DNA of 39,605 bases from an uncultured bacterium. Its GTDB lineage: Bacteria; Patescibacteriota; Minisyncoccia; Phycocordibacterales; GWA1-40-21. The notes below the pieces were generated by a model. That model was not told the origin of the DNA and did no database searches. It was given only the letters and a program-made list of their open reading frames with translations. Below are positions 8,100-29,377 of this stretch, in pieces. The position numbers were made by a program, and so were the translations under genes. Numbering within the stretch: the first letter of the stretch is position 1; each line of letters opens with the position of its first letter. The stretch is from the NCBI GenBank assembly GCA_903822075.1, contig CAIJNK010000010.1, forward strand, positions 1-39,605, read 5' to 3'.

Positions 8100-10739
8100 A
8101 TGCCCCCATTTAACAATTTTACAACTAAAGCTAAAGAGGTGATCAGGCGTGCTCATGAGCTCGCTATTGAACGTGGTCAAAACCATGTGAACCCAACACA
8201 CCTTTTGGTGGCGCTGATAATGCAGGAAGAAAGCATGGTCTCATCCATCTTGGATAGATTGGAAGTTGACGTTATTTCGCTGACGGACACTCTGCTTGAA
8301 ATCATTGACGAGATATCCCCTAATACCAATATTTCTTCGCCGGCCATGCAGATATATTTAACACCGGATTTGGCCCAAATAATTGAAGCTTCCGGCAATA
8401 TCGCTAAGGAACTTAAAGACGAGTTTATTTCGACCGAACACCTTTTTGTTAGCGTGATTGATACTCCTAGTCTCGCCAGAGATATTTTAGCGCGGTTTAA
8501 GATCGATCGTGTCCGAGTTGTAAAAGTATTGGAAGAATTCAAGAGTAACAATATCAGTGAAGTGCAGCCCGTAAAGAAATTCAAGGCAATTTTGAAGTAT
8601 ACCAGGAATCTGACTAAACTGGCCAAGGAAAATAAATTAGATCCAGTCATTGGTCGGGATGCCGAAATAGGACGAATAATTCAGATATTATCAAGGCGCA
8701 CAAAAAACAATCCGATCTTGATTGGTGAAGCGGGTGTAGGTAAAACGGCCATAGTGGAAGGCTTGGCTCTTAGGATGTCCACTGGAGATGTGCCGGAATC
8801 GTTGAAAGATAAAGAACTGGTTTCCCTGGATATGGGGATGTTGATTGCTGGAACAAAATATCGCGGGGAGTTTGAAGAGCGTTTGAAAAACATCATTAAG
8901 GAAATTGAAAAATCCGAAGGTAAAATAATTGTGTTCATCGATGAGATTCATACCATCGTGGGTGCCGGTTCGGCCGAGGGATCCATTGATGCTTCCAATA
9001 TGCTAAAACCGGCCCTGTCTCGTGGTGAATTTAGAACCATAGGCGCCACCACAACAAAAGAATATCAAAAGATTGAAAAAGATCCGGCTTTGACTCGTCG
9101 TTTTCAATCTGTTTATGTGAATGAGCCGTCGATTGAAGACGCAATTGCGATTTTGCGTGGTTTGAAGGATAAGTATGAGTTGTATCATGGGGTACGCATC
9201 ACTGATGACGCAATCATAGCATCGGTAAATCTGAGTTCACGTTATATTACAGATAGGTTTTTGCCAGATAAAGCTGTGGACTTGATTGATGAGGCGGCCT
9301 CTGCTTTGAAAATTTCATTAGAAAATATGCCACCGGTTTTGGAAGAAACACACCGAAAAGTTTTACGTTTGGAAATTGAACGTGAAGCTTTGAAGAAGGA
9401 AGCGGATCTCGGCGACAAGAAGGCTATAACCCGGACCAAAATAATCGAGAAAGAAATAGCTGACCTAAAAGAGAAAACTTCCGAGATTGAGTTAAAATGG
9501 AAAAATGAAAAAGAGATAATAACGGACATCAAAGCAATTAAAAAAGGTTTGGAACAGGCTAGGATAGAAGCCGAGGCGGCTGAGGTGCACGTGGATTTGG
9601 CCAAGGCGGCGGAGATTCGCTATGGCCGTATTCCACAGATGGAGAAAGACTTAATGGCAAAGGTAAAACGTTTGAAGATTTTACAGAGTTCGAGACAGAT
9701 GCTTAAGGAAGAAATAGGTGAGGAGGATATTGCTGACATAGTTTCCCGTTGGACGGGTGTGCCGGTGACAAGAATGTTAGAGGCGGAGGCCGAGAAACTG
9801 AATCGCATGGAGGAGGAGTTGAAAAAAAGGATTATTGGTCAGGACGAGGCGGTTAAAAAAATATCCGATACGGTTAAACGATCTCGGGCGGGGATTTCTG
9901 ACCCTAATCGTCCTATCGGTTCCTTTATTTTCCTTGGACCGACTGGTGTTGGTAAAACCGAATTGACCAAAGCTTTGGCCGAATTCATGTTTGACGATGA
10001 AAATTCTCTGATTCGGGTGGATATGTCTGAACTCATGGAGCGTCACTCCGTTTCTAAGTTAATAGGTTCTCCGCCAGGTTATGTGGGCTATGAAGAAGGT
10101 GGTAATTTGACGGAACAAGTCAGGCATCGCCCTTACTCCGTGATCCTTTTTGACGAAATTGAAAAAGCTCACCCGGAGGTATTTAACATTCTGCTTCAAG
10201 TATTGGATAACGGCAGGCTGACCGACGCCAAAGGACGCACGGTAAATTTCAAGAATACCGTCATTATTCTTACTTCCAATATTGGTGCGCAATACATCGA
10301 TAAAATGGAAGAAATTGGTTTCAGTATGGATAAAGGGAGTAAGGCGGAATATGAAGACGTGAAGGGTAGGGTAATGAAAGCTTTGAAAGATAATTTCCGG
10401 CCAGAGTTCCTGAATCGTTTGGACCATGTGATTGTCTTTGATATCTTGAGTGAGAAAGCCGTCGCTCAGATTGTGGACATCCAATTGGATATTATTCGTA
10501 AAAGGTTAGAGGAAAAAGAAATTAAACTGGTAATTAGTAAGGAAGTTATTTCCTATTTGGCTAAAGAAGGTTATAATCCGCAGTATGGCGCTCGGCCTTT
10601 AAAACGTTTGATTCAAGATAAGATTCTCACGCCAGTGGCATCTCTGATGATTTCACGTGGGGTTGCCGCTCACGGCGTTATTAATGTCGGACTAAAAAAT
10701 AAAGAATTCACTTTTGAGGTTAAAGGGAAGAAAAAATAA
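8100..10739 (+). CDS. clpB: ClpB/ClpC-type AAA+ ATPase (Clp/Hsp100)
   Basis: Clp N domain, two Walker A motifs ([18 protein letters not shown]), ClpB-like M domain ([15 protein letters not shown]), [17 protein letters not shown]. Confidence 0.92.
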
Positions 10740-10792: not shown

Positions 10793-10875
10793 GCGCCGGT
10801 CGTATAGCGGCTATTACAGGAGACTGTAAATCTCCCACCCTATGGGTATCGTTGGTTCGAGTCCAACCCGGCGCA
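10793..10875 (+). tRNA. tRNA-Tyr(GTA)
   Basis: Acceptor GCGCCGG/CCGGCGC-A, anticodon arm GGAGA-CTGTAAA-TCTCC, long variable arm, T arm GTTGGTTCGAGTCCAAC. Confidence 0.93.
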
Positions 10876-10880
10876 CAAAA

Positions 10881-11452: not shown

Positions 11453-11603
11453 ACAGAAAGTTTTACTTCATTACCCATTTAGACAAATTAGGGATATACG
11501 GAATCACCTTACTCTTCATTAACTCAGTTCTAACATTATCCAGTACTCCGCACATTAAAAAAACGGCTACGGCCGGTTTTTTAATGTGCGCCGAGCAAGT
11601 AAG
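11453..11603 (-). repeat. Dispersed repeat copy 1, containing a minus-strand C-terminal coding remnant
   Basis: Minus-strand peptide CGVLDNVRTELMKSKVIPYIPNLSKW matches CGVLYDVRTELMKSPVTPYIPNLSIW at 13060-13165; adjacent inverted repeat 11550-11589. Confidence 0.75.
11550..11589. repeat. Inverted repeat/hairpin (terminator-like)
   Basis: GCACATTAAAAAAACGGCTACGGCCGGTTTTTTAATGTGC. Confidence 0.85.
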
Positions 11604-13061: not shown

Positions 13062-13212
13062 AGGCTGAAACAGCTTTACTTTATCAGCCCAAATTGATAG
13101 ATTAGGTATATAAGGGGTCACTGGAGATTTCATTAATTCAGTTCTAACATCATAAAGTACTCCGCACAAAATAATCCCCGCAAGAGCGGGATTTTTTGTG
13201 CACCGAAGTAAA
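13062..13212 (-). repeat. Dispersed repeat copy 2, containing a minus-strand C-terminal coding remnant
   Basis: Minus strand encodes ALKYQHIGVYFGAQKNPALAGIILCGVLYDVRTELMKSPVTPYIPNLSIWADKVKLFQPTP*; hairpin at 13163-13201. Confidence 0.75.
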
Positions 13213-13324
13213 CCCCAATATGCTGATATTTAAGAGCATCTAGGATTAAATGGTAAAAGGAATTATATTTGAACTTAAGCCTTATAATTACTGTATTTTT
13301 TTGATATAATTGGTTAATAAAACT

Positions 13325-16300
13325 ATGTTAGAAAAAAGTGAGCTAAAACCAGACACAGCCGAGAAGGCTGACGTTAAAGAAGGACGGCAGCAGGAAAAAG
13401 GTATCTCACCTAGAGAAGGTTGCTTTGATTGGGATGAAATGACCGATAAAATGAAATTTTTTGTTGGCAGATTGGAAAAGGCTCGAGCTATTGATAAAGC
13501 AGAGAGGAGCCGGCGCGATATGGAAGAATTATCTAAGATGGAAGAAGAGCAGGTTCAAATATATGGAGAACAATTGGGTTTTGTTCAGGATCCAAATTTT
13601 TTAATAGAAATCGCCGAAATCGCCGGTAGCTTGACTAAAGCCGCCGGTTTTGAAGAAGACATATTGGTTTTGCCCATTTTAAGTAATGAAGTAAATGCAT
13701 TTGTTTACACAAACATAACAAAAAAATCTTCTGGAGAAACAGCTAAGGATGATGAGCCCAGCATTTATAGTCAACCTGGCGCAATGGGACGTCATATTTT
13801 TCTTTGTACCGGATTAGTTACTAAGTTTAAAGAATTTTGTGAAAAAAGGGGTGAAGAGATGACCAAGGATGACTTGGCTTTTGTTTTGTCACATGAATTG
13901 CGCCATTTGATCCAACAGCGCCAGAAAGAAAGAACATATATCACAAGGCGACAGGAGGAGTATGACGCTGATTTGGGTGGTATGGATATTTTAGGCAGAG
14001 CCGGATTTAATCCTCGCGAGGCAGTCAAGGCAATGGAGTTTTTATGTTCTGAGGGTGGCGGTTATTCTGATACGCACCCTGCATCTGCAAGTCGATTGGT
14101 GGAGATATCGAAAAGAATCGCTGATCCTGATATGCCATTCCGCGGACTAGGCGCTGTCCCTAAGAAGATTGAATCTATAACTAAATTTGAATCAAGAAGT
14201 GTAAAATTTGCAGAGGTTGTTAAAACAAGCCCGAATCTAGAAAGTTTAATAGTACAGTTAACTAAGGAAACCGATTCGCTTCCAAAACTTTTGGCAACTC
14301 TGCCACTAGCTTGCAGCGCTATAAGATACGCGGCCTTTCAAGAAATAGGAAGCACACCGTGTTTGGAGAGCTTATTTACTAAATATCTATATCAAAAAGG
14401 GATAGAAACGGCTAAATTTTTAGAAGAAATAAGAAAGAAAATTTCAGATGCAAATATAAAAATAGAAGAGCTTGAAGCCAAAGAAAATTTAAATAATAAG
14501 GAAACTGTTGAACTACGTAATTTGAAGGCCCGCGTCAGACGCGATGAGGAAGAGATGAGAGAGTTTAAAAGGTTTGATGTTAGTAATGCAAACTTAAATC
14601 CAAAAGAGAACGATTTTCTACAAGCTTGGGAGAAAACTAATGTAAAAACTGAAAAGCTTCCTATGGTAGGACAGCCAACAGAAGAGGATCTAAAAGTTTT
14701 TCTTCAGCCGAAGATCTTTAAATGCAGGTCGGGGTCAAAAGAGTTGGATTTTAAAAATCTGCCTGATTTTGATTGGGCTGAAATTTCTAAAGCATGGATT
14801 GAGGGCGGGGAGGTTAGCTCGGAAATATCTGAAGTTTTGTCTTTGGGTATGTGGGCATTTGAAAGAGATAACGTAAATAGAGAGAGGCTTCTCAATAAAA
14901 AGATACCTATTAATGATTTGGGAAATGAGGCATCGCGAAGAGCAGTATCTAGAGAATTTGCAATAAATTTTGTCGAAAATTATAATATTGACGACGCCAC
15001 TCGCAATTATGACAAAGATGCAGATCCTGACCTAAAGATTTTTTACGCAAAGTTTGATAATTTTCTTAAGGCTGCTACGACAGAAGGCTTAAAACCTATT
15101 ATTGATAAAATCCCGGAAATTGTATCAAAATATTTGCCATCAAATTTATCAGTCGAGGATCGTGATAGAATTATTAAAGAATTGGTGCCTTATGTTGTTC
15201 CGATGAATACGGCGGTGGCTCTAAGATACCCGCAAGACGATTCATGGTCGTCAAGAAGGCTGACTCCTGAACAAGCCACAATTATTTTAGAGGCATTCCC
15301 CAGTATGATTTTTGACAGTGTCTTATGGAAAGATAATAATTTGAAAGCGTATGACTTGGGCTGGGGTCCAAATTATGAATATTTTTTTCACAATACAGGA
15401 TTATCGCAAAAAGGACAAATTAGCGTAGAAGTTGTTGACCGGGCAAAAGAGCGTTTAATGGGGAGATTACCTAAAAACCAAGAAAAAATAAGAACATTGG
15501 ATGAAATGAAAAAAGGACGCTTCCTACTTAGGGGTATCGCCGCTCTAGAATTTTGCAGAGATAAGATTAATGCTGGTGTGGACGAAGTTGAGTTGAAACA
15601 AATTGTTTGGCAAATAGTCGAATCGGACATGTATTCGAACGAGCAAATAGCGATTCTCTTAAGGCTCAACGGTATTCGTAATTTTGAAGGCATAAGTAAA
15701 TTAGGTTACTCTTTGAAAGAAGAAACTCCATTAACTAAGGACGAAGTTGAGAAATTTCTTTCTTTCGTAATAGGGAGTGATCTTGGTTATGACAAGAAAT
15801 CTGAAATTATCCGGTCCCTCTCCCTGAGTTTCTACGGTTTTATAAAAAAAGAAGACTTAGATTCTCGCATATTATCTGAAACATGTTTAAGATTTTTACA
15901 CCGAGATAAGGATTCTGATGAGGAATGGCTAACTGAAAATTTGAAGGGCCTATCGATAGAAACAAAAAAGCCAATACCTGAAATTTTAGGGAGATTTTTA
16001 GATGGAGACTTGGTTATAAATGCTAAACATTTGCAAGGATTGGCAACAAACGAAGATATAAGCGCTCAAGATTTAAGAACCTATTACCGACAAGTAATAT
16101 CCAGGTTGGGCGTAGATGGTAATCGAATACGAGAAAATATTGAGGATTTTAGATCCGGCTTCAGTGGGGGGCATCAGCCGGAAACCGTATATCTTGAAAA
16201 ATTGATGGTTTTAATAGCGGGCGCCTCTTTCATGAAAGATAATCCAGAATTATCGGAAAAAATTTATAAGTGCGATAGCGCATATCAATTTAAGGAGGTG

Positions 16301-18883
16301 TTAGAAGAGGCAGAGTTAACATTTGAACAAATTACAGAATATTTTCCTGAAAGTTCTATGCGAAATGGATTATTAATGGATTGGTGGAGAGGAAATAATT
16401 TTGAAGTCGCTCTTTTTGATAAAATTTCACCATTTTTAGATAAGAAAGACGGTAATGAGCAACTCACAAAAAGTGAAAAGTTTGAAAAATTTGAAGATGG
16501 CAGAAACGTTCTAAGCTTTCCTGAACTTATTAAGATGGGAGAGAATCTAGTTGAAGGCAAAGGCGCGGAAGAAATTGAAGATAGCAAATCGGCTTTTGAA
16601 AGGTATAACGCACTTAAGGCCGAAAGTAAATTAATTGATTATGGTCATTCTCGTGTTTTTGGAGGCGAAGGCTATCTTGGTATTCTTGAAAAAAAATATG
16701 GACAAGATCCAGGGTATTTCATTAATTCTGAAAGTATTCTAGAGGAGAATCTTCGGAGAATTTTAGATGTTTGTCCGCCGTCTGGATTTAGGGATTATTT
16801 AATCTCGCGCGCTTTTAAAATCGAACTTTGGAAAAAATGTGAGAAAAAGCCAAATCTGGAAATATCCCCTCTCTTTGAACAAATAGAAAATGAATTCATG
16901 AGAGCTTCGGTCGAAGATCAAACAATTTTGGCTATTGTCGATAAGCTGGATTTCCCTGCGACTGAAGATTTGAAGAAACTAGATAAGGTTGATTTAATAC
17001 GTCATATACGTGCCGTGATCCCGCATATTGAAGACGAACAGGAAAGGATGGGTTTGGGTAGGTGGGCTTTTGAGCTTTTATCTCCAAAAACCAAAGAGGA
17101 AGAATTTAAACTGATAAACGAATTTTTTTCTGAGCCAAGTTTTGCAAAAGATCACTACCTTAAGAACTATATGCTTAAGTATTCGCTTGCCGTTTCAGAG
17201 ATTAAGGGTTTGGAGGGTTTACTTACACAAAATTTGATTCGAAATGGTAACCTACCCGAGGTGAAAATTTTAGGGGCAGAAATAGAAAGAAATCAAATAA
17301 AGGATTTATCTCCTAAAACAAGATCAGAATATCTCTCGTGGTTATTGGGTATTAACGAAGACCCGCCTATGCAGCTAATTCTTTCTGGGGGAGTATTTGG
17401 TTTTGATTACGGTTCGGTAAAAGATAATTTTTTCAGATTAACAAATACTGAGAAAACTGAATTTTTAAGGGAGTTTGTTCTTTTTGAAGGCGGGCTTTTT
17501 CAACCAAAGAAGTCGGAAGAAGAGAAGATAATGACTGATTTTATCGGCAACGTGTATGACAAAAAGTTGGCTGATGGCGCCACTGACAATGGTCTTTTAA
17601 GAGAAATATTTATTAATATATTCGATAAATCAATTCCCGAGAAAAGACATTTGTTATTTACGTCTTTACTATTCGCACTTGAAAAAAACAAAAGTGAAGG
17701 AAAAGATGTGCTAAGTTCTGACGAGAAGATAAAACTAATGCTTGAGCAAACCGGAGTAGTTGGAATAAAAGTAGGCCAGGTCCTATCGGAAAGTGCTAAT
17801 GTGCCATTCAGTAATGGTACCGAGAAGATGTCGGCCGGATTAAAAGAAACATTAAGTAGTCTTAAAGATGGCGTAGGACCATTCAACATAATCGGTGCGG
17901 TGTACCGTTTAGAGGATAATGGAATAGCTGGTGAGGTTAAAAGTATAGATAAGTTCTTGGCAACAGCCTCCATAAAACAAGCTCATGCTATCACTACCGA
18001 AAGAGGCGCCGAAGTGTTAAAAGTGAGAAGGCCTTCGGCCGATAAATATATTGAACATGATCAGAAACTCTTGGAGTCTTCGCTGGAAATTGCCCGAGCG
18101 CACGGCAAATTAGTTCCGAAATATTTCTCCGACTACGTGATGTCAATTCTTAAGGAAGAATCTGATTTTAGAAATGAAGCTGAAAATCAGAAATTATTAT
18201 CTCAGAATATTTCACAATCAAGAGGCGGCTGGGAATTTAGGGTGCCGGATATATCATACGCTTCAAGTGATTTGATGATTGAAAAATTTGCTTCAGGTAA
18301 GTCGCTAAGCGTCATAAAAAAAGATAATCCGAAACTTTATAAGGAAATTTCTGCTTTAGTGGGTATCGAATTGTTAAGTCAATTTTTTGAAAAGGGAGTA
18401 TATCATGCCGATCTACATGACGGGAATGTCTTTGTTGATGAAGAAAGTAAAAAAGTCTTCCTGATTGACGCCGGCGCGGTTGGAGACGCTAGAAATGAAT
18501 TGAAACCATTAAAAAGAATATTCAGGGGTTTAATTATGGGCGACTCAAACTCAGTTGCTGCGTCAATTTCTCAGATGACAGATAAACAAGCAATGTCGGC
18601 AGAAGACCTAAAAATAGAGCTAGTTAGAAAGTTAAAACCAATTATGGAAGGAAAAACAAGCTTGGAAGAAAAGGTTCAGGCACTTTCTTTTGAAATTTTA
18701 GACCAATGTTTGCCCAATAAATCTCTGCGTTACTTTTTGAAGGCAATGGCCACAGGTGCTCACCATCTAGATCAAATTATGCTGTCAATGACTGGTAAGG
18801 AAGACGGTATTTGGCAAAGAATGAGATCGATTCGTGAATTAGGACCAACGCTTGTAAAAGTTATGTTTTCTGTTTTAAGGTAG
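13325..18883 (+). CDS. Giant protein (about 1852 aa): N-terminal M48-like zincin plus C-terminal UbiB/ABC1-like atypical kinase
   Basis: SHELRHLIQQRQ, EEYDADLGGMDILGRAGFNP, THPASASRLVEI (M48-like); C-term KVGQVLSE, TASIKQAHA, EVLKVRRP, EESDFRNEAEN, HADLHDGNVFV, IDAGAVG (UbiB-like). Track start TTG 13310 overlaps a TATAAT box, so ATG 13325 is preferred. Confidence 0.85.
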   Translation: MLEKSELKPDTAEKADVKEGRQQEKGISPREGCFDWDEMTDKMKFFVGRLEKARAIDKAERSRRDMEELSKMEEEQVQIYGEQLGFVQDPNFLIEIAEIAGSLTKAAGFEEDILVLPILSNEVNAFVYTNITKKSSGETAKDDEPSIYSQPGAMGRHIFLCTGLVTKFKEFCEKRGEEMTKDDLAFVLSHELRHLIQQRQKERTYITRRQEEYDADLGGMDILGRAGFNPREAVKAMEFLCSEGGGYSDTHPASASRLVEISKRIADPDMPFRGLGAVPKKIESITKFESRSVKFAEVVKTSPNLESLIVQLTKETDSLPKLLATLPLACSAIRYAAFQEIGSTPCLESLFTKYLYQKGIETAKFLEEIRKKISDANIKIEELEAKENLNNKETVELRNLKARVRRDEEEMREFKRFDVSNANLNPKENDFLQAWEKTNVKTEKLPMVGQPTEEDLKVFLQPKIFKCRSGSKELDFKNLPDFDWAEISKAWIEGGEVSSEISEVLSLGMWAFERDNVNRERLLNKKIPINDLGNEASRRAVSREFAINFVENYNIDDATRNYDKDADPDLKIFYAKFDNFLKAATTEGLKPIIDKIPEIVSKYLPSNLSVEDRDRIIKELVPYVVPMNTAVALRYPQDDSWSSRRLTPEQATIILEAFPSMIFDSVLWKDNNLKAYDLGWGPNYEYFFHNTGLSQKGQISVEVVDRAKERLMGRLPKNQEKIRTLDEMKKGRFLLRGIAALEFCRDKINAGVDEVELKQIVWQIVESDMYSNEQIAILLRLNGIRNFEGISKLGYSLKEETPLTKDEVEKFLSFVIGSDLGYDKKSEIIRSLSLSFYGFIKKEDLDSRILSETCLRFLHRDKDSDEEWLTENLKGLSIETKKPIPEILGRFLDGDLVINAKHLQGLATNEDISAQDLRTYYRQVISRLGVDGNRIRENIEDFRSGFSGGHQPETVYLEKLMVLIAGASFMKDNPELSEKIYKCDSAYQFKEVLEEAELTFEQITEYFPESSMRNGLLMDWWRGNNFEVALFDKISPFLDKKDGNEQLTKSEKFEKFEDGRNVLSFPELIKMGENLVEGKGAEEIEDSKSAFERYNALKAESKLIDYGHSRVFGGEGYLGILEKKYGQDPGYFINSESILEENLRRILDVCPPSGFRDYLISRAFKIELWKKCEKKPNLEISPLFEQIENEFMRASVEDQTILAIVDKLDFPATEDLKKLDKVDLIRHIRAVIPHIEDEQERMGLGRWAFELLSPKTKEEEFKLINEFFSEPSFAKDHYLKNYMLKYSLAVSEIKGLEGLLTQNLIRNGNLPEVKILGAEIERNQIKDLSPKTRSEYLSWLLGINEDPPMQLILSGGVFGFDYGSVKDNFFRLTNTEKTEFLREFVLFEGGLFQPKKSEEEKIMTDFIGNVYDKKLADGATDNGLLREIFINIFDKSIPEKRHLLFTSLLFALEKNKSEGKDVLSSDEKIKLMLEQTGVVGIKVGQVLSESANVPFSNGTEKMSAGLKETLSSLKDGVGPFNIIGAVYRLEDNGIAGEVKSIDKFLATASIKQAHAITTERGAEVLKVRRPSADKYIEHDQKLLESSLEIARAHGKLVPKYFSDYVMSILKEESDFRNEAENQKLLSQNISQSRGGWEFRVPDISYASSDLMIEKFASGKSLSVIKKDNPKLYKEISALVGIELLSQFFEKGVYHADLHDGNVFVDEESKKVFLIDAGAVGDARNELKPLKRIFRGLIMGDSNSVAASISQMTDKQAMSAEDLKIELVRKLKPIMEGKTSLEEKVQALSFEILDQCLPNKSLRYFLKAMATGAHHLDQIMLSMTGKEDGIWQRMRSIRELGPTLVKVMFSVLR

Positions 18884-18973
18884 ACTTGACCTTTGCGCCA
18901 AAAATATTCAAGAGGTATAATGCATAATTAATTATGCGGAATCATTAATAAAAATTAAAATTCGTAAATATAT

Positions 18974-21900
18974 ATGGAAGGACCAAAGCTAGTAACCAAT
19001 GAAAAAATTACCAATGGAGACAGAAAACTGGCTTTGAAGACGGAATTTGGAGCCTTAAGACATGATTGGTTTAAATCCAAAGGCATTAATATAGAAGGTA
19101 AAGGTTATTCTGAAATTAAGAAAGCTATTGGGCAATTTTATACTGAGAATTCTGGAGTAATTAAGGAGGCGATGGAAGCAACTGAAGTAGATATGGAGAC
19201 TGAATTGGGGGAGCTTTCTGTAAAAAATCTAGATTTTAGGCGATTAGCTGAAGTCCGAAAGAAACTTAATTTGCCCAAGTATGTATCCTTGTCCGAAGCG
19301 GTGGCCTTTATCAAGACGGCTATGGATCTTAGTGATGATACTATAACTGAAAGATATGCCGAATATTGCGCCTCTGGTATTTCACTTGATGACATGCGAA
19401 ATACTTTGGCTTATGAAAATGATGTCAAACCGGTTCGCCTGGACACCGATATATATCACCAATCTCCAGAAAGGACCCGTTCGGCCGTCGAAATTGTCTC
19501 AAATGCAATTGATGCTATGAATAAAACCGGTATTACCATCGGTCGGTTTGGTGTTGGCTTCTATCAGATCCTATCTCATCTAAAAGAAGGTGACGATTAC
19601 GTAAAAGTCACGACAGGCAATGAAGAAACAGGTTTTTACGAGATTAGCTTTAAATTGGAAGGAAAAGAGATTAAATTTCACCTCCAAGAGGTAAAGGGAG
19701 AAAGGAATAGCGGAACAACTGTTGAACTTCATGTGAAAGATTTTCCAAAAGATGAAGCTGAAACTTTAGTTAAAAAACACTTTGCATTCAACTCTGGTGC
19801 CAAGGTAAAATGTAACGGCGAGCAGGTAAACAATCTCGATTCCTTTGGTGTTGATCAATCAAAACAGAATACTGCCGATATTAAACTTACTGAGTATGGT
19901 TTTCAAGTTACTGATACTGGTATCGGTATGTCTCCTCAAGTTATTCTGGAAAAACTGTTGGTCCCAAAGATTTCTGGAAAGAAACCAATCCAAGAAATGA
20001 TGGATTTGGATATTCAGCCTACGTATATAATTGAACGAGGTGGGGATAAGTCATTCACGGGCGGAAAAGTGGTTGTAAATGTTGGTGGGGTGGTAATTGA
20101 AGAGATTCCTCTGACTGGTATTAATGTTCTTAAAACCTTAGTAATCGACCTACCGCCTTTTACTTTACTCGGTGAAGAGAGAAATCAGGTGGCTGTAGAT
20201 GAAATAACCATAAAGGCAATGAAAAAGGTTATTGACAATGTTGTCCAAGGTGGAGATTTCCAGACAATTAATTCCTTAGCTCCTATTGTGAATAAATTGC
20301 AAGGCAGATCTATGAATCACCACGAAGGGAACAATCTGAGTGAATATCTAAATAAAAAGGCTGGCGAACTTCTTCCGGATATAAATAAATATTTCCCTAA
20401 TATATCAGGTTTTGAAAGACTGGATATTCGTGACGCTGTTTTTCTCGATCCAGATGTAAGACAGACTAACTGGAATACGATACCAGAAATATTTAAGCCA
20501 AATATGAACGAATCTGGTGGTCTTATCTTTATCGCTCCTCTTACTGATTCAATTGAGAGTCCCTTAATAAGGTGGCGTAATCGGATAATATTTAGTCAAA
20601 AGTTATATGATAAATACAGGGATGACCCAACCGTCATTAACATATTTTTGGAAGCATTTGAGCACGGTAATGATCTCAAACTGAAACGTCTGGCTGATAA
20701 ACAGGAAAAAATCTCAGGAATTCAATTAGAAGCAGGAGAGAAGAAAGAATATAAGGATTTTTCTCAATTTGTTGTTGAAAATTGGAGAGCTTTAGGCTTT
20801 AAAGATAAAAATACGGCTGAATTGCTATTAAGTAATTTAAATAATGAGAAGTATTTTATCGACTTAGAGGGTAAGGTTTTATCTGAGTCTCTGATCGAAG
20901 AAGGAAGGAAAGAACAACAACGATTATTACAACTGGTACATAAATATATAATAGTTAATTTTCCGGAATATTATGCGCGATATTTTGTGGATGCTGTTTT
21001 ATATAATCAGATTCCTCCGCTTACCGAGGAAAATTTAGCTAATTTTGCTACCCTTGCCAGGTGTGCCAAATTACCGGTATTGCTATCGGATTTAATGATC
21101 TACCCAATTGTCAGTCGGGAGGAACAAATTGATCACTTTGACGGAATCGGATTCAAACCTAAGCTAAGTGATCCTTATGATGATATGAGCTATTGCGCTT
21201 CAACTGACGAGCAAAGGAAAGAAGAGGGTGTTTGGGGGACGAGGGATCATTTATATGGTGAACGTGATAATAATATTGGTAAGTGGTATACAATTCATCA
21301 GTGGGATCGAGAAAATCTGGTTCATATCGGTGGAGAAGTCTTTCCGGGAGAAGCTACACATCTGAATAGGTCAGGTATGTTTTTTGTGCGAGATGGTAGA
21401 AAATATTATATGGTCAATGAGAGGACTAGGGAAAGAATAGATATAGATTATAGATTTAAATTTGATATTAAAAAAAGTTATCAATTTCACGAATTTCCTT
21501 TCGGTAATCAAGAGCTTGTTGAAGTATACTGTGGAGAATTTCTTTCTCGCGACAGAAGAAGGATGGAAGAGTATATCTTTGGCGATCGTGATAGTAGCTC
21601 AGGAGAAGGATTTGTACTTTTTGATGTAAATAATCGAACTGAATTTAACCCTCGACCTGAGCTTGGTGAGATAATCGATTATGTTAATTCAGATAAAAAG
21701 GAGTACAGGTCATTTGCGGTTGAGCATACATATTTACTTTACGAAAAGACAGTGGGCGTTAAGAAAAAATATTTTGCCTATTTTCCTGACGATACTTGGG
21801 AAGAAGTATTTACCAAAGATGAATGTATCCCTGAGAGAATGCAAAAAGATATTAAGGAAAAAGGCACAGTTGAAAGAGGGGACTTCTATAAGTCTTCGTT

Positions 21901-24493
21901 CTATACGGGTTCAGCCTATGGCGATAAGAATTATAGAAGAGAGATAGGTTACATACCAGGTAAGGACATGTTGGTAGCCTATGGGAAGATGACATTTGAC
22001 AAAAATGGAAAACCAGACAATTACCCTAGTAGTTTAGCACTTATTAAAAAAGCAACTGAATTAAGCGAAGTAAAAGCCAATGCTGTCTATCGTGTACTGG
22101 AATCAAGCTCGGTTGAAAGTGAGCAGAAACATAGGAGATTTTTGAATAGAATATTTAAGTACAGTTATCTTAGTGACCAGGCTTTTAATTATATCGCTGA
22201 TGTTTTGTTGGAAGTGGATGACATAGAACCATCGGTATTGCAAGAAGATCTAATCAGTGAAACTGAAGTTCGATTGGCCGGTTATGATAAGGATGCAAAA
22301 ATTTGGTTTTATCGGCTGTTAGTTAAGATGGTTGATGACGAGTGGAATAAGGATGAACTGAACGTTTTTTTTGGTAAATTTGTACGGGTCTATATTGATA
22401 AAGTACTCGATCTATCAAACTCAGAGAAGGAGTCGATGTTCAAGATTTTTAATGAGGCCAGGGTTTATGGAAAAGAATATATCGTAAATGGCTGGAACAT
22501 TATTAAATATAAAACACCAATACCAACACAACAAATACCAGAGAGTATAAGACCAATCGTAGATTTTTTGAGGTCTGATGAAAAAACGATGTTTGGAAAA
22601 TCAAGAGAGGAAATTGCTTTTGCTCAATCCTCCCAATTTACTTTATCACAACTTATTCAGGCCAAGAGATTAAATGAAACACAAATTCGAGGTTTTAATG
22701 GGAATACAGCAGAATTAGAACAACTTGTTAAAGAAAAAGTTGAGGGGAAAAAACAGGATCATATTCAGAGAGAAATAATTCATCCTATTTATTACCAAAG
22801 TGTTAATAATCCATATCTTTTTATTAGAGAGTTAGTACAAAATGCACACGATGTGGTAATTCAGAATAGACTTAAATCCAAAAAAGATAAGTCGGTAACT
22901 ATAGATATTTTTAGCAGAAAAGAAGAATCAGTCACCCTAAGAATTGAAGATCATGTCGGTATGTCACTTGGAGAAGTGTTAAATTATTTCTTGATACCGG
23001 GAGAAACTACAAAAATTGGGCAAAAGGATGTAATCGGTTACTTTGGTCAGGGGTTGTTTACGCTTTTTCGAGGGGCGAAAGAAGCTGTACTTAAAACTAG
23101 TAAAGGAGATGGTTTTATTACTAAACTCAAAATAATACCTAAACTTGATGATAAAGGTATGGTTTCTGACCTGGATTTGACGATTGAACAGGAGGAGGGT
23201 GATTTCAAAGGTACTATAATTGAGCGAACGGTTGATACGGAATACCCGACTGTAGAGGGTGCTTATATTAAAAATGCCACCGCCACCTTTACTTCTTTGG
23301 TTGATGGGAATGTGGTAGATATTTATATGAATGGTCAAAGATTGAATGATAAACAAATTAAGCTTGCTTCCATTGATGTTCCTGGGGTTGGTGAAATGCA
23401 AATCTTTGATGCTCCAAATAATGTAATTACCCAGAGAGGTCTTTTTGTTAAGAGTGTAGATTCTGATTTTAATACAGAAATGCACGATGTTGAAGCTATG
23501 CTGGAACATAGGGGTTACGTACTGAATATCCCGGATGATGTTCGTTTGACAAGATCAAGAAATGAGATAGCACAGAAACAGGAAACACTTGAAAAAATAA
23601 AGGCTTACCTTCCTACCCTTAAGGTTAAGGCATATATAGAGATTTTTAGGCAGGATATTATAAGAGGTCATGTTATTCAGCTAAAAGATCTTCCTTCTGA
23701 TTATTTTTACCAGGATTACAACCCTAGTCAAAAATTGGCAAATGATGCTGAAAAAATTCGAAAGGGCCAGTCGCTTGATGATGTGAGTCCATATTTGGAA
23801 AGAAGTAGTTTAATTTCCTTACTTGTTTTATTGCCAGTAGTTGAAATTGGAAGCAAATCTTATTCTTTAGCAGAACTCAAAGCCGCTTCATTAACTGATG
23901 CACCGCCTCTTTCCTCGGAAAGAGATTATGAGCAAATTCCGGCTGTAATAAGAAACAGACTGCTTGATGGTAAAAAAGAGCACGGAAGAATACAGTCCGC
24001 TATGTCTCAAGCAGAGATGGATGGAAGAAAGGTTCCAGATTTTTCGATTAATGATTGGCAGAGACAACCTGAATTTATTAAAGAGCAGGTACAAAAACAA
24101 CTTGATGAATATGGCAATATGTCTAAACTTACTGATAGGTTTAATGAAATAACTTGCCGTTCATTTGGAGACGGAAGATCTGTTGAAACGACATTCTACA
24201 ATGCACCTGGATCAAAAGCACATGCCACTCAAGGATTTGGAGGACTTGGATGGAATCTAGAATATTGGAAAGGCTGGAATATTAGGATGTTTGGGCAAAA
24301 AAATCCATCCGACCATGAATTAAAAAACTTCCTAGATGTTTGGAGTCATGAGTTCGGACATATTCTTGAGGAGAGTGGTTTTACTCATAACCCCAAATTT
24401 TATAGAAGACAGGCCGAAGCTTTATCAAGGTTTATGTATGAAAGAGAGGTTGGCTTGACAAAGAAGAGCTTGGTTGACAAGCTCAACCGGTAG
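18974..24493 (+). CDS. Giant protein (1839 aa): two HSP90-like GHKL ATPase modules plus C-terminal HExxH (HEFGH) metallopeptidase-like domain
   Basis: Module 1: EIVSNAIDA, IGRFGVGFYQIL, VTDTGIGMS; module 2: FIRELVQNAHD, RIEDHVGMS, VIGYFGQGLFTLFRGA, GTIIE; C-term DVWSHEFGHILEESGF (HEFGH at nt 24347-24361). Confidence 0.85.
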   Translation: MEGPKLVTNEKITNGDRKLALKTEFGALRHDWFKSKGINIEGKGYSEIKKAIGQFYTENSGVIKEAMEATEVDMETELGELSVKNLDFRRLAEVRKKLNLPKYVSLSEAVAFIKTAMDLSDDTITERYAEYCASGISLDDMRNTLAYENDVKPVRLDTDIYHQSPERTRSAVEIVSNAIDAMNKTGITIGRFGVGFYQILSHLKEGDDYVKVTTGNEETGFYEISFKLEGKEIKFHLQEVKGERNSGTTVELHVKDFPKDEAETLVKKHFAFNSGAKVKCNGEQVNNLDSFGVDQSKQNTADIKLTEYGFQVTDTGIGMSPQVILEKLLVPKISGKKPIQEMMDLDIQPTYIIERGGDKSFTGGKVVVNVGGVVIEEIPLTGINVLKTLVIDLPPFTLLGEERNQVAVDEITIKAMKKVIDNVVQGGDFQTINSLAPIVNKLQGRSMNHHEGNNLSEYLNKKAGELLPDINKYFPNISGFERLDIRDAVFLDPDVRQTNWNTIPEIFKPNMNESGGLIFIAPLTDSIESPLIRWRNRIIFSQKLYDKYRDDPTVINIFLEAFEHGNDLKLKRLADKQEKISGIQLEAGEKKEYKDFSQFVVENWRALGFKDKNTAELLLSNLNNEKYFIDLEGKVLSESLIEEGRKEQQRLLQLVHKYIIVNFPEYYARYFVDAVLYNQIPPLTEENLANFATLARCAKLPVLLSDLMIYPIVSREEQIDHFDGIGFKPKLSDPYDDMSYCASTDEQRKEEGVWGTRDHLYGERDNNIGKWYTIHQWDRENLVHIGGEVFPGEATHLNRSGMFFVRDGRKYYMVNERTRERIDIDYRFKFDIKKSYQFHEFPFGNQELVEVYCGEFLSRDRRRMEEYIFGDRDSSSGEGFVLFDVNNRTEFNPRPELGEIIDYVNSDKKEYRSFAVEHTYLLYEKTVGVKKKYFAYFPDDTWEEVFTKDECIPERMQKDIKEKGTVERGDFYKSSFYTGSAYGDKNYRREIGYIPGKDMLVAYGKMTFDKNGKPDNYPSSLALIKKATELSEVKANAVYRVLESSSVESEQKHRRFLNRIFKYSYLSDQAFNYIADVLLEVDDIEPSVLQEDLISETEVRLAGYDKDAKIWFYRLLVKMVDDEWNKDELNVFFGKFVRVYIDKVLDLSNSEKESMFKIFNEARVYGKEYIVNGWNIIKYKTPIPTQQIPESIRPIVDFLRSDEKTMFGKSREEIAFAQSSQFTLSQLIQAKRLNETQIRGFNGNTAELEQLVKEKVEGKKQDHIQREIIHPIYYQSVNNPYLFIRELVQNAHDVVIQNRLKSKKDKSVTIDIFSRKEESVTLRIEDHVGMSLGEVLNYFLIPGETTKIGQKDVIGYFGQGLFTLFRGAKEAVLKTSKGDGFITKLKIIPKLDDKGMVSDLDLTIEQEEGDFKGTIIERTVDTEYPTVEGAYIKNATATFTSLVDGNVVDIYMNGQRLNDKQIKLASIDVPGVGEMQIFDAPNNVITQRGLFVKSVDSDFNTEMHDVEAMLEHRGYVLNIPDDVRLTRSRNEIAQKQETLEKIKAYLPTLKVKAYIEIFRQDIIRGHVIQLKDLPSDYFYQDYNPSQKLANDAEKIRKGQSLDDVSPYLERSSLISLLVLLPVVEIGSKSYSLAELKAASLTDAPPLSSERDYEQIPAVIRNRLLDGKKEHGRIQSAMSQAEMDGRKVPDFSINDWQRQPEFIKEQVQKQLDEYGNMSKLTDRFNEITCRSFGDGRSVETTFYNAPGSKAHATQGFGGLGWNLEYWKGWNIRMFGQKNPSDHELKNFLDVWSHEFGHILEESGFTHNPKFYRRQAEALSRFMYEREVGLTKKSLVDKLNR

Positions 24494-24517: not shown

Positions 24518-24554
24518 GAGACCCCAGTAAGCTAACGCTTCGGGGTCTTTTTTA
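24518..24554 (+). terminator. Rho-independent terminator after the giant ORF pair
   Basis: GAGACCCCAGTAAGCTAACGCTTCGGGGTCTTTTTT. Confidence 0.8.
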
Positions 24555-25246: not shown

Positions 25247-25666
25247 ATGATCAGAGAAATCTTGAGTGATATATTTTCCCCTTACTCGTCGCTTGGGGAA
25301 AGGTGCTGGGCCACACTTATAGTGTTGCTCGTGCTCGTGATAGTTGGATTGTTTTGTTATTTGGGATTTACTTTTGTCGATTCCGCAGCCATCACTCCCA
25401 CGAGGATGACGGTTACGGTGGTCGATGTAAAAGAGGTCGTTCCTGCTTATACCACCATTATCATGGTAAGGAACGTCACGATCCCAGAGTACAACCCGGA
25501 ATCCTACCGACTTCATTTTAAGCTTGATGGAGAGAAGGTCTCTTCGTCCGTTGAAAAGAAATTATTCGAGGAGATCAATGTTGGCGATAGGATCGAGGTC
25601 GTTTACGGATTCGGACGACTAAGCAAATCGCACCAGCCAACGCGAATCAGGCTGATAGGAAACTGA
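25247..25666 (+). CDS. Hypothetical single-TM protein (139 aa)
   Basis: TM segment LIVLLVLVIVGLFCYLGF; downstream terminator CCCACCA...TGGTGGG-T run. Confidence 0.7.
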   Translation: MIREILSDIFSPYSSLGERCWATLIVLLVLVIVGLFCYLGFTFVDSAAITPTRMTVTVVDVKEVVPAYTTIIMVRNVTIPEYNPESYRLHFKLDGEKVSSSVEKKLFEEINVGDRIEVVYGFGRLSKSHQPTRIRLIGN

Positions 25667-28465: not shown

Positions 28466-29377
28466 ATGGCAAATAGGCACATTGCAAGATCCATCGTTCT
28501 TCAGTCACTCTTTGAACTTGATTTCAGGGATTATTCTGAGTTGAAATCCAAGGAAGAGATACTTTTGCGTAATGCGGCTGAATTTGCCAATGATGTTGTT
28601 GATCAAACTTTTGTCAACGCTCTCTTTGACGGTGTTATCAGTAAAAAGGAAGAAATAGATTTGGTCATCCAAAAGGCCGCTCCGGATTGGCCCCTGGAAA
28701 AAATCTCTACTATTGATCGAAATATTTTGCGTATCGGTCTTTATGAGCTTCTCTTTGCGGACAGTAAGGAAGTGCCGGCCAAGGTGGCTATTAATGAGGC
28801 CATTGAATTATCCAAGAATTACGGCGGGGAAAAAAGTAGCAAATTTGTAAATGGCGTTTTGGGTTCAGTGTATAAAGAATTGGGTGAACCGGATAAGGAT
28901 GCCGTCTCAAAAAAGAAAAAGAAAACGATCATGGATATTCCATATGAAGAGATGCCCATTGAGCGCTTGGGTGGAGCGGTCGTTTATGCAAAAAATGGTG
29001 ATGATTATTATCTGGCAATGGTCCATGATGTCTTCGGTTTTTGGACCCTGTCAAAAGGCCGTCTGGAAGCCGATGAAAAAGAAATTGATGGTACCAAGAG
29101 AGAAATTAAAGAAGAAATCGGTCTGGACGTTGAGGTCTTGGATGAAATAGGTCGTAACGAGTATATTGCCAACCATCCGGAAAAAGGCAAGCTGCGTAAA
29201 CAGGTTATATATTTTTTGGCTAAAGCCGATTATAAAGATCTACAATTAGAAAAGGATAACGGTGGCTTGGATGAGGCACGTTGGTTTAAACTTTCCGAAC
29301 TGGAGGATGTAAAAACCTACGGTGATATTCTACCTTTCATTACCAAAGCCGTCTCCTTGATTTCCCAACAAAAATAG
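28466..29377 (+). CDS. NusB-like antitermination factor fused to a C-terminal NUDIX hydrolase domain
   Basis: N-term ARSIVLQSLFELDF...IDRNILRIGLYELLF...VPAKVAINEAIELSKNYGGEKSSKFVNGVLGSV (NusB); C-term SKGRLEADEKEIDGTKREIKEEIG (Nudix box). Confidence 0.9.
   Translation: MANRHIARSIVLQSLFELDFRDYSELKSKEEILLRNAAEFANDVVDQTFVNALFDGVISKKEEIDLVIQKAAPDWPLEKISTIDRNILRIGLYELLFADSKEVPAKVAINEAIELSKNYGGEKSSKFVNGVLGSVYKELGEPDKDAVSKKKKKTIMDIPYEEMPIERLGGAVVYAKNGDDYYLAMVHDVFGFWTLSKGRLEADEKEIDGTKREIKEEIGLDVEVLDEIGRNEYIANHPEKGKLRKQVIYFLAKADYKDLQLEKDNGGLDEARWFKLSELEDVKTYGDILPFITKAVSLISQQK

Follow-up and report, generated by a model that had tools for sequence, protein, structure and literature searches.

The two adjacent giant genes of this uncultured bacterium appear, on balance, to encode two independent soluble ATP-dependent proteases that lie side by side and were probably acquired horizontally as accessory genes. 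A single chain, that of the first protein (ORF A), displayed conserved residues of both an M48 zinc site and a UbiB-type ATP site, and where the gene was split its halves remained neighbours. The second (ORF B) displayed two probable Hsp90-like GHKL domains and a zincin-like C-terminus. Of chief interest are the M48-UbiB family and the apparently permuted GHKL domain of ORF B, the latter if the permutation is confirmed. Searches of open-access literature returned no paper whose title or abstract describes either architecture.

The window (the whole stretch of DNA analysed, 39,605 nt, G000:C10:1-39605) belonged to a genome of 819 kb in 22 contigs, consistent with Patescibacteria in its size and in the genes it carries. 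As an earlier note had described, two co-directional ORFs of about 1850 aa (1857 and 1839 aa) were found on the same strand, separated by 90 nt (Table 1). The start that it gave, position 13325, was corrected, being an ATG inside ORF A, which opens at the TTG at 13310. The strong terminator noted after the second gene was recovered (-17.4 kcal/mol, z -3.95), and none was present in the terminator listing for the intergenic gap; given the common strand and the short gap, ORF A and ORF B would be co-transcribed. Both genes were lower in G+C (37.6% for ORF A and 36.8% for ORF B) than the window (40.9%), and their GC3 (32 and 30%) was below the 43-45% of two further large genes in it.

Table 1. 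Features of the giant-gene locus and of the region upstream (positions in the window)
Feature	Position	Strand	Description
tRNA-Tyr	10793..10876	+	anchor of variable region / integration hotspot
att-like repeat copy 1	11474..11582	+	contains ...AGTACTCCGCACA
att-like repeat copy 2	13088..13196	+	just upstream of ORF A
ORF A	13310..18883	+	1857 aa: M48 metalloprotease - ~1,200-aa linker region - UbiB/ABC1-type kinase
ORF A M48 zinc site	13892..14113	+	HELRH aa 195-199, EEYDAD aa 216-221, THP aa 255-257
ORF A UbiB/ABC1 kinase domain	17717..18589	+	KVGQ 1487-1490, ATASIKQ 1551-1557, K1571, HADLHDGN 1699-1706, IDAG 1719-1722
ORF B	18974..24493	+	1839 aa: GHKL1 - middle region - GHKL2 - C-terminal zincin-like domain
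ORF B GHKL1	19487..19984	+	N-box SNAIDA aa 176-181, G2 box GRFGVGF aa 190-196, G1 box DTGIGM aa 314-319
ORF B GHKL2	22799..23104	+	RELVQNAHD aa 1285, DHVGM aa 1326-1330 (degenerate G1), GYFGQGLF aa 1355; canonical order
ORF B zincin-like motif	24344..24391	+	SHEFGH...FTHN aa 1791-1806
Intrinsic terminator 3' of ORF B	24518..24553	+	GACCCC...GGGGTC-T6

The M48-like protease and UbiB-like kinase that the earlier note had read at the two ends of ORF A were both borne out by Pfam matches above curated cut-offs, for Peptidase_M48 (PF01435; E=7e-10, 39.4 bits against 20.3) and for ABC1 (PF03109; E=8e-27, 94.4 bits against 22.9). In addition to these scores, the N-terminus displayed the HExxH motif and the downstream Glu ligand of M48 peptidases, and the C-terminus the KxGQ motif, the catalytic HxDxHxGN motif and the metal-binding Asp of the UbiB/ABC1 kinase superfamily. 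The single HExxH of ORF A fell within the M48 match (0.02 expected from shuffled sequences). Solved structures were matched at both ends, namely ABC1-family (E 1e-14 with the ORF A profile) and COQ8 structures, and the M48 structure 3c37. A true UbiB orthologue was rejected as an identity for ORF A, since the UbiB equivalog profile (NCBIfam) reached 121 bits over aa 1430-1757, far under its cut-off of 487.6. No transmembrane segment or signal peptide was evident in ORF A (max KD19 1.25).

The ORF A family is real but rare. Searches covered an order sample, a 380-genome phylum sample and 353 genomes of the class of G220, and giants were found in five other genomes. The phylum sample contained G220 (1908 aa), G510 (1886 aa), G379 (1796 aa) and G365 (split), and the giant of G1043 was truncated by the contig start. 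Zinc-site residues H195, E196, H199, E217, D221, H256 and P257 were invariant across the giant homologues, and an alignment of four diverged giants displayed invariant M48 and kinase residues in catalytic and structural motifs. Kinase domains of six giants, including that of the window, formed one group with 100/100 support in two tree builds that included 12 stand-alone UbiB-type rows from the phylum; the branch of G220 was long and its exact placement unsure. The Lys two residues past the A-loop Ser was kept in all six. The giant of G365 was split over two adjacent ORFs with a 4-nt overlap (L039:7149-14194), one for the M48 half (922 aa) and one for the kinase half (1426 aa), which suggests a functional tie between the halves. 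Two large ORFs devoid of Pfam matches (L038:3358-6363 and L038:1470-3431) were observed near the giant of G510.

Giant relatives of ORF A or ORF B were absent from the genus, family and order samples, as well as from virus contigs searched with single proteins and with alignments. The alignment scans of viral contigs returned two ordinary UbiB-type matches for ORF A and none for ORF B, and degenerate-peptide scans of viral and genome contigs with the single proteins retrieved no relatives of either.

For ORF B, two GHKL domains followed by a HEFGH protease had been proposed; the GHKL domains were supported through a homologue and Hsp82 structures, and the zincin by its motif and that one homologue. 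In the window protein, both GHKL domains scored under the Pfam cut-offs (18.8 and 17.3 bits). GHKL2, with N, G1 and G2 in order and DHVGM as G1, reached 17.3 bits against a cut-off of 25, and a sub-threshold sacsin-type match was obtained over aa 1283-1367. The homologue from genome G270 scored higher (HATPase_c_3, 48.9 bits; sacsin-type ATP-binding domain, 53.9 bits, above cut-off) and Hsp82 structures were matched (E 0.003 with ORF B alone, E 0.0005 for GHKL2 with a two-row profile), which supports the GHKL calls. The single HExxH of ORF B (HEFGH, aa 1792) compared with 0.05 expected from shuffled sequences, and HE..H and FTHN were common to ORF B and its homologue. As this end had no Pfam profile match and no PDB match in a profile search of solved structures, the zincin call is based on the motif and these two sequences. 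Single-sequence AlphaFold models were unusable (mean pLDDT 35.4 in the GHKL1 region and 33.5 in the C-terminal third).

The G270 protein (1822 aa), from another class, was the one other member of the ORF B family and had the same layout, with 29% identity over the alignment. The family was thus present in 2 of up to ~780 genomes, window genome included. The two-sequence profile found no further member in 286 genomes of the class of G270, and tblastn found no relative of ORF B in phage and plasmid records. In G270, the homologue lay beside YceG-like, nucleotidyltransferase and PAP2 genes (L036:2652-12056). Genes for NusB and RNase III were located ~1.6 kb from it and, in the window, ~4-5 kb past ORF B, a common proximity that may be coincidence. 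One ORF of the window (28466-29377) fused NusB and NUDIX domains.

The first GHKL domain of ORF B displayed the abnormal motif order N-G2-G1, a feature absent from the earlier note, whereas the canonical order N-G1-G2 was found in the G270 homologue. Against this homologue, GHKL1 aligned out of order, as the N box, the G2 segment (aa 188-291) and the G1 segment (aa 299-337). With the G1 segment moved ahead of G2, the local alignment scored 413 instead of 244, while 313 was the most that any of 288 random segment swaps gave. The Pfam HATPase_c match rose from 16.1 to 28.0 bits, so that the cut-off (26.4) was passed only by the reordered domain. The reading frame was open across all three junctions (near 19520, 19862 and 19985) and no joining repeat of more than 10 nt was found in their neighbourhoods, which makes a simple assembly error driven by repeats less likely. 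The order reflects either a real permutation or a misassembly, and the rearranged domain might no longer bind ATP.

The region 3' of ClpC (8100-10739) and tRNA-Tyr was variable within the family. tRNA-Tyr followed ClpC in G148, G004 and G151, as in the window, and the genes past ClpC differed in these three genomes and in G150, with no giants among them; other genes also stood ahead of TrmD in G148 and G149. Other members of the window genome's family lacked the A and B pair. The recombination scars mentioned in the earlier note correspond to att-like repeats adjoining tRNA-Tyr. These repeats (~109 nt) recurred several times in G148, of the same genus, where one copy lay at the right end of the post-tRNA-Tyr insert, next to a copy of the terminator sequence of the tRNA. 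Serine recombinase, NrS1-polymerase-like and DnaB (replication) genes were carried by this insert (L079, L096). ORF A and ORF B sat immediately right of the window's last att-like repeat. A location inside an att-bounded insert was rejected, as no repeat was found right of ORF B in a search extending to position 25300. Because of its low G+C and its place in the variable region 3' of the tRNA-Tyr hotspot, the pair was probably acquired as accessory cargo. Acquisition is the simplest reading; absence in relatives through loss is possible, and low G+C can result from weak codon selection.

A co-evolved two-protein machine, the earlier note's view, in which for example ORF B would unfold or present a substrate and ORF A cleave or phosphorylate it, now seems unlikely. 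The genes share a strand, a 90-nt gap in which no terminator was found and one strong terminator after both, and they are alike in size and base composition. Chance adjacency of two such rare families is itself improbable, so that a true partnership, or transfer of both genes together, is conceivable, and cooperation in this genome is possible without being a conserved property. The distribution of the families argues the other way: when each profile was run over the genomes holding the other family, no match was obtained, and among the genomes searched both occurred only in the window genome. The searched flanks of ORF A giants contained no ORF B or GHKL giant. The genome-neighbourhood search suggested in the earlier note thus returned no second pair, with one case of adjacency in all, and homologues occurred as the unlinked singletons that it had named as counter-evidence. 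Since the families neither co-occurred nor adjoined elsewhere (five other genomes for A, one for B), a conserved two-gene system is unsupported and a conserved operon was rejected. A and B look like accessory proteins rather than a dedicated two-part machine.

It is similarly doubtful that A and B are anti-phage or conflict proteins of a defence-type island, acting as large multidomain sensors with an NTPase and a protease effector. Their patchy distribution, giant multidomain build and position at a tRNA-Tyr integration hotspot, where G148 has serine recombinase and replication genes, would agree with such a role, and GHKL ATPases do function in defence, as in the GHKL-nuclease VcSduA (PMC12137116). 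PADLOC matches were nevertheless weak and of generic kinase or GHKL type (best E 6e-4), the identified neighbours of A and B homologues were metabolic or envelope genes, and no known defence gene was among the identified G148 cargo; neither a specific PADLOC match nor defence-gene linkage thus placed A or B in a known anti-phage system. An action of ORF A on membrane lipids or isoprenoid/quinone-type molecules, its M48 part performing quality control at the same membrane surface, is rather improbable as well. The UbiB equivalog match, the ABC1-family and COQ8 structures and the co-residence of PGM48 (M48) with ABC1 kinases in plant plastoglobules point in this direction, but that match attained 121 of 488 bits and no hydrophobic segment was found in ORF A, whereas UbiB and M48 enzymes are often membrane proteins.

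Two independent soluble proteases therefore remain the preferred reading, for which the following mechanism may be drawn. In ORF A, the long linker would join an M48 gluzincin to an atypical kinase of UbiB/COQ8 type; its shape would change with the nucleotide state of the kinase end, or when substrate binds there, and so gate the protease. ORF B would be chaperone-like, its two Hsp90/sacsin-type GHKL domains clamping with ATP and delivering substrate to the terminal zincin; clamping followed by cleavage is suggested by the domain order. We infer the ATPase-protease coupling and the substrates of both proteins from sequence, and the likeliest role would be conditional protein quality control, or a part in stress or defence, for a cell that has few enzymes of this kind. 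The ATP-dependent proteases known so far are mostly AAA+ machines. A new non-AAA+ class of ATP-driven proteolysis, with a functional GHKL1 of transposed N-G2-G1 order in a chaperone-protease partnered with a UbiB-kinase-gated M48, would be a very improbable outcome. The fusion of M48 and UbiB-type kinase, as a family of single origin, offers an entry point to roles of UbiB-type kinases outside quinone metabolism, and the permuted GHKL domain, if confirmed, probes how much rearrangement the fold tolerates.

Compared with known systems, ORF A shared with UbiB/ABC1/COQ8 proteins (PF03109) the KxGQ motif, the A-rich loop, the HADxHxGN catalytic loop and the IDxG metal site. Unlike them, its kinase terminates an 1857-aa protein, the family has an A-loop Lys (ASIKQ/ASNKQ instead of the ASIGQ type), IDAG/IDLG replaces DFG, and the giants form a separate tree group. 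HExxH, ExxxD and THP were conserved as in M48 peptidases (PF01435), whereas ORF A is fused to a kinase and had no transmembrane segment detected. Plants also pair M48 and ABC1 kinases, within one compartment: three reports (PMC12587418, PMC3635846, PMC4915526) place the M48 protease PGM48 and ABC1 kinases among plastoglobule core proteins. These are separate proteins on plastid lipid droplets, and the likeness to ORF A is one of analogy only. ORF B resembled sacsin/Hsp90-type GHKL proteins in its repeated Hsp90-like ATPase domains within one giant chain. Unlike sacsin, whose architecture includes DnaJ and HEPN (PMC3710099), it had no Pfam match to either domain, ended in a zincin-like C-terminus and, in the window copy, carried a permuted GHKL1.
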